Shown one piece after another: positions 27,859 to 37,859 of a DNA stretch of 64,000 nt. Source of the DNA: Azospirillum lipoferum 4B. Lineage in GTDB: Bacteria > Pseudomonadota > Alphaproteobacteria > Azospirillales > Azospirillaceae. Below the pieces are notes generated by a model, which saw only the letters and a list, made by a program, of their open reading frames with translations, had not been told where the DNA came from and made no database searches. Location: contig NC_016586.1 in assembly GCF_000283655.1 (NCBI RefSeq), forward strand, positions 449,001 to 513,000, read 5' to 3'. A program made the translations under genes and the position numbers. The stretch's first letter is position 1, and the number at the start of each line of letters is the position of its first letter.

Positions 27859-28755
27859 ATGCAAACCATCGCCCTGGGTGCGTTCACGGTCACGCGGATC
27901 GAGGAAATGCTGACGCCGGGTTTCGACCCCGGCTTCCTGTTTCCCGCCTATGACGAGGCGATCCTGACCCGGAACCCCGATCTGGCCGAACCGAACTTCC
28001 TAGACCCGACGTCGCGGCGCCTGATGTCGAGCATGCACAGCTGGCTGATCCGCACCGACCGCCATGTGATCCTGGTCGACACCGGCTGCGGCAACCACAA
28101 GGAACGCCACATGCCGGGCTTCGAGCGCTTCCACATGCTGGACAAGCCCTATCTGCGCCACCTCGCCGAGGCCGGGGTGCGGCCGGAGGATGTGACGCTG
28201 GTCATCAACACCCACCTGCACATCGACCATGTCGGCTGGAACACGCAGCTGGTCGACGGGCGCTGGGTCCCGACCTTCCCCAATGCCCGCTACATCTACG
28301 GCGCGCAGGAATTCAAGCACTGGCGCAGCCCCGAAGGCGGTCTGGTCGGCATGCCCGGCAACGGCCCGGTGATGGAGGACAGCGTCATGCCGGTGTGGGA
28401 AGCCTGTCAGGTGGACCTGATCGAGGACGGCGACCGCATCCTCGACGGGCTGTCGGTGGAACTGGCGCCCGGCCACACCGCCGGGCAGATGTTCGTCCGC
28501 TTGGAGTCCGGCCACCACGCCGCCTACTTCACCGGCGACTGCCTGCACCAGCCGATGCAGGTGTGCCGTCCCGACTGGAACAGCCGCTTCTGCGAAGACC
28601 AGGCGCAGGCGGTAGCGACCCGCCGCCGGCTGCTGGACCATGCCGCCGACCGCAATGCCCTGGTCTTCCCGGCACATTTCGGCGCTCCCCACACCGGCTA
28701 TGTGCGCCGGACGGCCGAGGCTTTCCGGTTCGAGCCGCTCACCGACGCTGCCTGA
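27859..28755 (+). CDS. Metallo-beta-lactamase-fold hydrolase
   Basis: A 298-residue metal-dependent hydrolase of the lactonase/quorum-quenching-like branch. The metal site is THLHIDHVG (His119, His121, Asp123, His124), with further ligands in APGHTAGQ, YFTGDCLHQP and PAHFGAPHTG. The ATG is preceded by GGGGAGGA. There is no signal peptide. Members of this branch open lactones or cleave esters; ring opening of a lactone intermediate would fit the catabolic setting but is inference. First gene of an operon running through the oxidase, hydratase, lyase and Liv transporter, with gaps of 8-90 bases up to the transporter permeases. Confidence 0.88.
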   Translation: MQTIALGAFTVTRIEEMLTPGFDPGFLFPAYDEAILTRNPDLAEPNFLDPTSRRLMSSMHSWLIRTDRHVILVDTGCGNHKERHMPGFERFHMLDKPYLRHLAEAGVRPEDVTLVINTHLHIDHVGWNTQLVDGRWVPTFPNARYIYGAQEFKHWRSPEGGLVGMPGNGPVMEDSVMPVWEACQVDLIEDGDRILDGLSVELAPGHTAGQMFVRLESGHHAAYFTGDCLHQPMQVCRPDWNSRFCEDQAQAVATRRRLLDHAADRNALVFPAHFGAPHTGYVRRTAEAFRFEPLTDAA

Positions 28756-28776
28756 CCATACCCAGAGGGACATTCC

Positions 28777-36371: not shown

Positions 36372-37159
36372 GGGCCACCGCCAACGCAGGAGAGATCCTG
36401 TCCGTCAGCAACCTGACCCGCATCTTCGGCGGGCTGACCGCGGTGCGCGACGTCACCATGACGGTGCAGGCCGGCGAGGTGGTCGGCCTGATCGGACCGA
36501 ACGGCGCCGGCAAGACGACGCTGTTCAACATGCTTGGCGGCTCGCTGCCGCCGTCCTCGGGCAGCATCCGCTTCGACGGCACCGACTGCACCGGCGCGCC
36601 GTCGCACGTCATGGGCCAGCGCGGCGTGTCACGCACCTTCCAGATCACCAGCCTGTTCCCCAGCCTGACCGCGCTCGACAATGTGCGCAGCGCCGCCTAC
36701 CGCACCACGCGGGCCGGCTGGGGTGCCGCCATCCTGCGCAACGCCGCCTATCGCTGGGAAGAGGCGGAGCTGCGGCGCAAAGCGCTGGAGATCCTGGCCT
36801 TCTGCGATCTCGACCACCGCACCGACACGCTGGCGGACTCCATGTCCTACGGCGAGCAGCGCCGGCTGGAGATCGCCATCGCGCTCGCCGCCGAACCGCG
36901 CCTGCTTTTGCTGGACGAGCCTGCCGCCGGCATGAACCCGGAGGAAGGCCAGCGGTTGGTGGAGATGATCCGCCGCATCCGCGCCCGCGGCGTCACCGTG
37001 CTGCTGGTGGAACATCACATGCGCGTGGTCGCCAGCGTCTGCGACCGGCTGGTGGTGCTGGACCATGGAGTGAAGATCGCCGAGGGGCCGCCGGCCCATG
37101 TGCTGAACGACGCGGAAGTGATCCGAGTGTATCTGGGACGGGAGCCGGTCGATGCTTAA
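36368..37159 (+). CDS. Liv-type ABC ATPase (LivG-like)
   Basis: Cytoplasmic ATPase of 263 residues. Walker A is GPNGAGKT (43-50). The signature in this protein reads MSYGEQRRLEIAIALA, the LivG version of LSGGQ, and Walker B is LLLLDEPAAGMNPEE. RTFQITSLFPSLTALDNV matches the Q-loop region. It overlaps LivM by four bases and LivF by eight. Confidence 0.94.
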   Translation: MRATANAGEILSVSNLTRIFGGLTAVRDVTMTVQAGEVVGLIGPNGAGKTTLFNMLGGSLPPSSGSIRFDGTDCTGAPSHVMGQRGVSRTFQITSLFPSLTALDNVRSAAYRTTRAGWGAAILRNAAYRWEEAELRRKALEILAFCDLDHRTDTLADSMSYGEQRRLEIAIALAAEPRLLLLDEPAAGMNPEEGQRLVEMIRRIRARGVTVLLVEHHMRVVASVCDRLVVLDHGVKIAEGPPAHVLNDAEVIRVYLGREPVDA

Positions 37160-37859
37160 GGTCGAAGGTCTGAAGGTCAGCTACGGCCACCGCGAGGCGG
37201 TCCACAACGTCTTCCTGACCGTTGAGGAAGGGGAACTGGTCACGCTGGTCGGCTCCAACGGCGCCGGCAAGACGACGACGCTGAAGGCGATCTCCGCCCT
37301 GCTGCGGCCGAGCGGCGGAACCATCACCTTCGACGGCGAGCGGATCGACCGCATGGCGCCGCATCAGGTGATCGAACGCGGGCTGGTCCATGTGCCGGAA
37401 GGCCGCCAGCTTTTCCCCGACATGACGGTGCTGGAACATCTGGAGCTGGGCGCGCTCCGCGGCCGGCCGGGCAGCATGGGCTTCGCCGAGCGGCTGCGCT
37501 GGGTCTACGAGCTGTTCCCCATCCTGGCCGAACGCCGCACCCAGCGCGCCGGCACCATGAGCGGTGGCCAGCAGCAGCTTGTCGCCTTCGGGCGCGGCCT
37601 GATGGCCAACCCGAAATGCCTGATGCTGGACGAACCGACGCTGGGGCTGGCGCCGATCATCGTCGACACGCTGGCCGATACGATCAAAAGCCTGCACAAG
37701 TCCGGCATCACCGTCCTGCTGGTCGAGCAACGGGTCGATCTGGCGCTGCGGCTGGCCGACCGGGCCTATGTGCTGGAAACCGGACGGGTGGTGATGGAGG
37801 ATGCGGCGCAGACCCTGCTGGCCGATCCGCGCATCAAGACCGCCTATCTGGGGCTGTGA
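37152..37859 (+). CDS. Liv-type ABC ATPase (LivF-like)
   Basis: Second ATPase of the importer, 235 residues. Walker A is GSNGAGKT (34-41), the signature MSGGQQQLVAFGRGLM and Walker B CLMLDEPTLGLAP; LVHVPEGRQLFPDMTVLEHL is the LivF-specific stretch. Last gene of the operon, 29 bases from the convergent siderophore-reductase gene. No clear terminator is visible in the short gap. Confidence 0.94.
   Translation: MLKVEGLKVSYGHREAVHNVFLTVEEGELVTLVGSNGAGKTTTLKAISALLRPSGGTITFDGERIDRMAPHQVIERGLVHVPEGRQLFPDMTVLEHLELGALRGRPGSMGFAERLRWVYELFPILAERRTQRAGTMSGGQQQLVAFGRGLMANPKCLMLDEPTLGLAPIIVDTLADTIKSLHKSGITVLLVEQRVDLALRLADRAYVLETGRVVMEDAAQTLLADPRIKTAYLGL

Follow-up and report, generated by a model that had tools for sequence, protein, structure and literature searches.

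The locus described here raises the question of what an aconitase-family enzyme does once the serine base and the substrate-binding arginines of its active site have been replaced, and which pathway it serves together with the lyase encoded next to it. It lies in a 64,000-nucleotide stretch of Azospirillum lipoferum 4B (contig NC_016586.1, positions 449,001 to 513,000), hereafter the window. The initial annotation had seen an ordered set of genes for a metallo-β-lactamase (MBL)-fold hydrolase, a GlcD-type oxidase, aconitase-family large and small subunits (LSU and SSU), an isocitrate lyase (ICL)-family lyase and a Liv importer. All are present as named on the plus strand, and the module runs exactly from the MBL start (27859) to the end of the LivF-type gene (37859). 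The unit extends beyond this span: the divergent IclR gene belongs to it, and the α/β hydrolase gene at 24996-26615 probably does too. On balance and with moderate confidence, we read the locus as a substrate-inducible catabolic operon by which an organic acid would be imported, converted by a hydro-lyase/isomerase and then cleaved by a C-C lyase. Its genes are the following.

24996 to 26615, plus strand: α/β hydrolase of 539 aa, a probable feeder hydrolase (PF00561)
26641 to 27489, minus strand: divergent IclR-family regulator (PF01614, PF09339)
27859 to 28755, plus strand: MBL-fold hydrolase, a probable lactonase/esterase (PF00753)
28777 to 30366, plus strand: GlcD/VAO-type FAD oxidoreductase (PF01565 and PF02913; best PDB matches D-lactate dehydrogenase)
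30393 to 31649, plus strand: aconitase-family LSU with a rewired active site (PF00330, 9e-62)
31658 to 32206, plus strand: aconitase-family SSU with the loop NFGYGHPHYPP (3vba, 2.5e-33; alternative GTG start at 31646)
32184 to 33050, plus strand: ICL/phosphoenolpyruvate (PEP) mutase superfamily lyase with the loop PKRCP (PF13714, 2e-43; 3eoo, 1.5e-44)
33141 to 34283, plus strand: Liv-type periplasmic substrate-binding protein (PF13458)
34477 to 35355, plus strand: LivH-type permease (PF02653)
35310 to 36371, plus strand: LivM-type permease (by position; 92% to an annotated A. ramasamyi permease)
36368 to 37159, plus strand: LivG-type ATPase (85% to an annotated A. ramasamyi ATP-binding protein)
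37152 to 37859, plus strand: LivF-type ATPase (98% to an annotated A. ramasamyi ATP-binding protein)

The genes are closely packed. The MBL and oxidase genes are separated by 21 bp and the oxidase and LSU genes by 26 bp, and the widest gap in the module is 193 bp. The LSU and SSU genes overlap by 4 bp or stand 8 bp apart, depending on the choice of SSU start, and the SSU and lyase genes overlap.

The strongest evidence comes from the active site. Scanning GTDB contigs yielded 221 confirmed LSU relatives, the best 80 of which (L010-L089) were fetched with their neighbourhoods. All neighbourhood counts refer to these nearer relatives and to the fetched stretch, which is short in some contigs; open reading frames (ORFs) were called by a custom script, so that gene counts are approximate. 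Motifs were counted in 86 LSUs, 87 SSUs and 76 window-type lyases. A canonical Peribacillus SSU with GSSRE that had fallen into the cluster (L007) was removed from the SSU counts, and the LSU of L003, found by tblastn as two pieces in different frames, is outside the LSU cluster. Residue numbers and roles are those of mitochondrial aconitase, mapped onto solved relatives of the two subunits. The motif changes noted initially hold as written, with the D-S-H motif changed to HFDGHVSQ, GSSRE to GHPHY and KRCGH to KRCPI, and the examined relatives show the same motifs or closely similar ones.

The LSU belongs to the aconitase superfamily by its PF00330 domain, which scored 210 bits against a cut-off of 28.7. 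Its iron-sulfur (Fe-S) cluster cysteines C299, C359 and C362 are retained in all 86 LSUs, and so are the equivalents of D100, H101, H147, D165, H167 and R452. Five other positions are changed. E262 is replaced by Phe and R447 by Leu in every LSU, N446 by Thr in 85 and Val in one, N258 by Gly in 71 and Cys in 15, and S166 by Gly in 77 and Pro in 9. The SSU gave no Pfam match at E ≤ 0.001 and lacks the superfamily's GSSRE, the loop carrying the Ser base and an Arg; all 87 SSUs have GHPHY there, with S642, S643 and R644 replaced by His, Pro and His. A further SSU position is presumably the substrate-specificity site at which the isopropylmalate enzyme, with Val, differs from homoaconitase, with Arg. 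Of the 87 SSUs, 78 have Lys there and 9 have Arg, which suggests a substrate whose side group is acidic and not alkyl.

The dN/dS ratios against three relatives were 0.10-0.20 for the LSU, 0.13-0.26 for the lyase and 0.18-0.31 for the SSU. Since the motif changes recur in relatives and the genes are under purifying selection, the changes are not chance. In a tree holding 24 of the 86 HPHY LSUs, chosen for spread (L117 and L120 were omitted as extraction fragments), these LSUs form one clade with a support of 100/99, and alpha-, beta- and gammaproteobacteria are intermingled in the tree. Long-branch warnings apply to L114, L113, L006, L007 and L090, and L008 and L009 carry the label 'canon' in the tree though they are themselves non-canonical. 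Because the motifs are invariant, selection is purifying and the clade is single, the changes are best read as a fixed, selected re-engineering of the active site. SSU relatives lacking SSRE also occur elsewhere (L008 8001-8534, L009 8001-8540, L115 6863-7405) and represent further non-canonical aconitase-like groups. An NFGH-HNHVEV loop is seen in Roseomonas, and NFGTGKAHTNA in Paraburkholderia beside a gene of the 3-keto-5-aminohexanoate cleavage type.

The lyase carries the superfamily domain PF13714 at 149 bits. The Mg-binding Asp pair and Glu (D84, D86, E113) and the catalytic Cys of the K-R/K-C loop are present in 76 of 76 window-type lyases. KRCP stands in place of KRCG in 73 of them, mostly followed by A, I or C; the exceptions are KSCP in L006, KRCA in L066 and KRCG in the second, canonical-looking gene of L060 (L060_1). 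QPIS is found where methylisocitrate lyase has PE. A second type of partner, c26 (for example L043 10780-11661, with seven relatives), stands behind the LSU-SSU pair instead of the KRCP lyase in eight loci of Pseudomonas, Paraburkholderia/Burkholderia and Cupriavidus. Its loop is EDHAGGKHT, and the catalytic Cys is absent in all eight.

The module is conserved as a unit. The closest plasmid match, in Azospirillum ramasamyi (LSU 99%, SSU 94%), has the module and its upstream neighbours in the same order, with an extra GlcD-type gene after LivF that the window lacks; the LSU matches at 98-99% in six Azospirillum loci of GTDB. On a Variovorax plasmid the order IclR-MBL-FAD oxidase-LSU-SSU-lyase-Liv is retained and the five enzyme genes show 61-76% identity. 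The Variovorax importer is distant from that of the window (LivH 31%, LivF 46%, no match for the substrate-binding protein), and a group of genes for AtuA, DUF4387, a TTT-binding protein and a TPP enzyme adjoins the Variovorax module (L002 292-4371). The SSU gene directly follows the LSU gene in 80 of the 80 GTDB loci, and LSU, SSU and lyase are consecutive in 63. An ICL-superfamily lyase is present in 78 fetched stretches, 69 by cluster, L063 by tblastn only and eight as c26, and it lies within 5.5 kb of the LSU in the 77 loci measured. The seven plasmid records with a lyase match at E ≤ 1e-40 are the top seven SSU records. Across 75 loci (L003 and L007 excluded) the pairwise identities of the LSU track those of the lyase, with r of 0.87 and none of 999 permutations as high; common descent of the loci would by itself produce such a correlation if the genes travel together. 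On a Polaromonas plasmid the lyase and SSU are about 20 kb apart. In Polaromonas sp. P1-6 (L003 8726-9980) the LSU is split in two frames and unannotated, either a broken gene or a sequencing error, and several IS6 transposases lie in the same stretch.

The exact SSU motif was found in 4 of 398 Pseudomonadota genomes and in 12 of 82 genomes of the family, the central genome of the two sets being included in each count; the reversed motif, used as a control, had no match in either set. The module is thus accessory and patchy. Among viral contigs, 80 stretches matched the SSU pattern and none was confirmed.

Most loci combine the core with genes for uptake and control. Two IclR-type clusters cover 58 of the 80 loci. 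Liv genes occur in 45, genes of the tripartite ATP-independent periplasmic (TRAP) type in 14, of the tripartite tricarboxylate transporter (TTT) type in 9 and of one major facilitator superfamily (MFS) cluster in 6; two loci have two kinds, and 72 have at least one of the four in the fetched stretch while 8 have none. Because the LSU-SSU pair and the lyase are near-constant and are mostly accompanied by uptake genes of the organic-acid type, we read them as a hydro-lyase followed by a C-C lyase, and we infer every reaction, the inducibility and the substrate of the operon from such patterns. The Liv importer would take up an organic acid or its lactone or ester, which the MBL and α/β hydrolases may open and the FAD oxidase may oxidise. 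LSU and SSU would pair up as a heterodimeric Fe-S hydro-lyase/isomerase with the aconitase fold, yielding a 2-hydroxy acid, and the invariance of the His-Pro-His-Tyr loop and of the Lys/Arg suggests that they stand in for the Ser base and the Arg carboxylate clamps. The lyase, judging from its fold, Mg-binding Asp pair and Cys, would split the 2-hydroxy acid by a retro-aldol or Claisen-type reaction into a 2-oxo acid (or glyoxylate) and a carboxylate. The substrate is most likely, as far as the specificity position tells, a di- or tricarboxylate that resembles a substituted maleate or aconitate and bears an acidic side group.

The MBL, FAD oxidase and α/β hydrolase genes are best regarded as feeders, since many relatives lack them in the vicinity of the core. 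The MBL cluster is present in 31 loci and the FAD oxidase cluster in 22; α/β hydrolases occur in 23 (19 of the window's cluster, 4 of a second), several directly after the lyase or LivF. An MBL homologue at 49% lies in a cluster with genes for muconate cycloisomerase, muconolactone isomerase and maleylacetate reductase, and on another plasmid some 2.5 kb separate an α/β hydrolase homologue at 37% from a gene for chloromuconate cycloisomerase. A gene of the SMP-30/gluconolactonase family is found near the core in two loci, L048 and L087, both of Burkholderiaceae. By analogy with the cluster of the MBL homologue and with these gluconolactonase-type genes, the MBL protein may be a lactonase, hinting at a lactone feeder. 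Further neighbours include HyuAB genes in L033 and L054 and, in L033, Rieske/TauD genes as well. We tried to assign a substrate from neighbouring genes and abandoned the attempt, as they give hints and no single substrate follows.

Several points weigh against the catabolic reading. With the Ser base and the substrate-binding Arg residues gone, the enzyme may catalyse something other than hydration. The cleavage step is perhaps not uniform, because the c26 lyases lack the Cys. In L044 and L054 the fetched stretch holds no ICL-superfamily lyase and has an FAH-family gene. The limited spread of the MBL and FAD oxidase clusters means that the window's pathway may differ from that of most relatives, and the Variovorax importer, though likewise a Liv system, is so distant that the molecule it imports need not match the window's.

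The region between IclR and MBL holds two conserved elements, and an acyl-CoA ligase gene lies beyond the α/β hydrolase.

27675 to 27691, plus strand: perfect palindrome GTGTCA-N5-TGACAC, a candidate operator between IclR and MBL
27695 to 27710, plus strand: TTTTGCCTGTTGACAC element, a conserved candidate promoter/operator occurring once in the window
23140 to 25005, minus strand: AMP-forming acyl-CoA ligase, possibly accessory (PF00501; start at ATG 24747 or GTG 25005)

The palindrome has a single match within the window, with 0.08 expected by chance. In an alignment of ten Azospirillum IclR-MBL regions, the window included, its arms are preserved in 9 and TTTTGCCTGTTGACAC is present in all 10. 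We read the two as a putative regulated promoter. Two results of a consensus scan weigh against this: no sigma-70-type site was found in the region, and the palindrome with its T-run was classed as terminator-like, which offers an alternative reading. The acyl-CoA ligase cluster occurs in 7 of the 80 loci, namely six of Azospirillum and L019.

A bolder claim may be ventured, to which we give tentative credence at best. The HPHY clade would be a new functional class of Fe-S enzyme on the aconitase scaffold, in which a His/Tyr/Lys site replaces the Ser-alkoxide base and the Arg clamps for a reaction unknown in the superfamily; with the KRCP lyase it would make up a patchy, probably horizontally exchanged pathway for a natural organic acid that bacteria are not yet known to use.

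The main rival of the catabolic reading, unlikely in our view, is that LSU and SSU are no hydratase and catalyse another Fe-S reaction (the dehydration, isomerisation or decyclisation, for example, of an acid derived from a lactone or heterocycle), whose product the ICL-family protein then takes. The loss of the Ser base and the Arg clamps is what gives it weight. It also draws strength from the eight catalytic or binding positions that are replaced in concert and are invariant or nearly so while the cluster ligands are kept, from the lactonase-type genes nearby (MBL in 31 loci, SMP-30/gluconolactonase in 2) and from the muconate cycloisomerase genes beside MBL and α/β hydrolase relatives on two other plasmids. 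These plasmid contexts, however, involve homologues at only 49% and 37%, and 78 of the 80 loci still have an ICL-superfamily lyase as the partner, which is what a 2-hydroxy-acid product would lead one to expect.

The initial annotation had proposed an undescribed catabolic pathway with a dimethylmaleate-like module. What stands is a hydro-lyase/C-C-lyase module for an imported acid, as the order is kept from Azospirillum to Variovorax and the core occurs with unrelated uptake systems, and its novelty holds within the open-licence literature searched. The specific dimethylmaleate model, in which hydration of dimethylmaleate, citraconate or another dialkylmaleate by LSU/SSU gives an alkylmalate that the lyase splits into pyruvate and propionate or acetate, fell away and is now improbable. 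The gene order and families are the same as those of Dmd, the lyase matches 2,3-dimethylmalate lyase 3fa3 at 1.9e-28, the SSU scores best on the NCBIfam model LeuD/DmdB, and the nearest solved SSU is that of isopropylmalate/citramalate isomerase. All three proteins nevertheless fall under every NCBIfam cut-off listed for them. The SSU misses narrowly, with 102.4 against 108.95 bits for TIGR02087, a model that covers the LeuD type too. The LSU is below all listed hydratase-family cut-offs (337.4 against 385.7 for TIGR01343, 324.0 against 410.15 for TIGR02086 and 360.2 against 385 for NF001614). The Lys/Arg at the side-group position disfavours an alkyl group, the Ser-base/Arg loop is absent from 87 of 87 SSUs, Arg447 and Glu262 are lost throughout, and the A. 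ramasamyi and Variovorax neighbourhoods have no gene annotated for nicotinate.

That the proteins are ordinary relaxed LeuCD/PrpB paralogues with a side activity in leucine or propionate metabolism has their superfamily membership in its favour and is very improbable: they form a distinct clade with invariant new motifs, their presence is patchy (4 of 398 and 12 of 82 genomes), uptake genes of the counted kinds accompany 72 of 80 loci, a separate LeuC above the family cut-off is encoded elsewhere in 8 of 8 module-bearing genomes tested, which together with the 137.5 bits of the window LSU against 560.25 for the LeuC equivalog makes a LeuCD role unlikely, and the lyase reached 174.1 of the 354.4 bits of the PrpB equivalog and lacks its KRCGH loop.

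The pair encoded here is a sharply defined subfamily, set in a conserved catabolic module, for which the libraries searched contain no dedicated family model. In annotated relatives the LSU, SSU and lyase genes go under the names aconitase family protein, 3-isopropylmalate dehydratase and isocitrate lyase/PEP mutase family protein. If the catabolic reading is true, the label 3-isopropylmalate dehydratase is wrong for the SSUs of the 80 GTDB loci and perhaps for many of the 221 relatives, and it conceals an organic-acid pathway across many Pseudomonadota. The motifs HFD[GP]H[VI]S, GHPHYP and KRCP provide an immediate test of membership. The HPHY clade is also a natural experiment in which an aconitase scaffold has exchanged its base and substrate clamps while keeping the cluster ligands; for this reason, and because the finding can be tested at once, it merits biochemistry.

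Beyond the core, the flanks of the module resemble iron/siderophore uptake by eye, with genes of the siderophore-interacting type (37889-38560, minus strand), AraC type (38678-39655), TonB-receptor type (39825-41984) and ABC ATPase type (41989-42783) and a receptor-like ORF (18294-20594); in A. ramasamyi the neighbours carry the annotations siderophore receptor, Fe2+-dependent dioxygenase, siderophore-interacting protein and AraC regulator. On a Burkholderia arboris plasmid (L093 8553-12731) a FAD oxidase homologue at 58% directly follows a Rieske ring-hydroxylating oxygenase and is followed by an MFS-like ORF (by eye), with no LSU, SSU or lyase matches in the 21.5 kb fetched. On the sphingomonad plasmids pJE1 and pTomTYG65b (L090 and L091) a FAD oxidase homologue at 39% is clustered with LeuCD-type genes and with genes of the HMG-CoA-lyase type, CoA-transferase and isochorismatase, perhaps a CoA-dependent counterpart. 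Beside TRAP-type core loci stands a family of about 540 aa with a Cys-rich C-terminus, c27 (L042 6978-8537 and five relatives), possibly an additional pathway enzyme. It had no match in Pfam (E ≤ 0.01), NCBIfam (E ≤ 1e-15) or PDB by phmmer (E ≤ 1), and a distant Streptomyces homologue had none in Pfam at E ≤ 0.1. A by-eye likeness to M29/NicX-type proteins was dropped as evidence, given an hhalign probability of about 0.1 from six rows against one M29 protein, a weak test because there is little variation on both sides.

How, then, does the module compare with known systems? No description of it was found in the open-licence literature, as far as titles, the beginnings of abstracts and passages from four papers show. 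In the relevant passages, 'dml' in PMC9804861 is a gene of a methylcitrate cluster, and what PMC8651744 offers is a KEGG label. Passages of PMC9875883 on itaconate and 2-hydroxyparaconate metabolism of Pseudomonas treat the lactone and itatartarate as fungal acids, offer an aconitase-like hydratase acting on itatartarate as the authors' speculation and name the CoA-dependent Ict, Ich and Ccl as itaconate genes; the terms LeuC and isopropylmalate are absent from the text. We read itatartarate as a 2-(hydroxymethyl)malate, and list it and a 2-hydroxyparaconate-type lactone as substrate candidates only.

A phosphonate pathway was considered and rejected for the window. A cluster of the same families on a Bradyrhizobium japonicum plasmid (L114 3600-8599) resembles phosphonate biosynthesis, with a homocitrate-synthase-like ORF (by eye), a canonical aconitase-type pair, PEP mutase-type and IDH/IPMDH-type genes and a nucleotidyltransferase further on, but its SSU has the canonical GSSRE and its lyase the loop EDKCHPKRNS without the catalytic Cys.

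Isopropylmalate/citramalate isomerase (4nqy for the LSU, 3vba for the SSU) provides the nearest solved structures by sequence. The Cys ligands and the Asp and His residues are shared with it, whereas the equivalents of S642, S643, R644, E262, R447, N446, N258 and S166 are replaced in the window proteins. Homoaconitase (4kp2 for the LSU, 2pkp for the SSU), presumably of Methanocaldococcus, has in common with the window SSU the basic residue at the specificity position, and the same catalytic replacements separate the two. PrpB (3eoo) and 2,3-dimethylmalate lyase (3fa3) share with the window lyase the fold family, the Mg-binding Asp pair, EDQ, K-R-C and ARTD; the window lyase differs in KRCP for KRCGH and QPIS for PE. 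DmdAB and Dml, which act in the nicotinate fermentation of Eubacterium barkeri as a two-subunit Fe-S hydratase followed by an ICL-superfamily lyase, are alike in gene order and families. The HPHY loop, the Lys/Arg at the side-group position and the proteobacterial context with MBL, FAD oxidase and Liv genes are the window's own. With the family cut-offs missed and the active site different, DmdAB/Dml appears to be a fair analogy of order rather than a case of membership.

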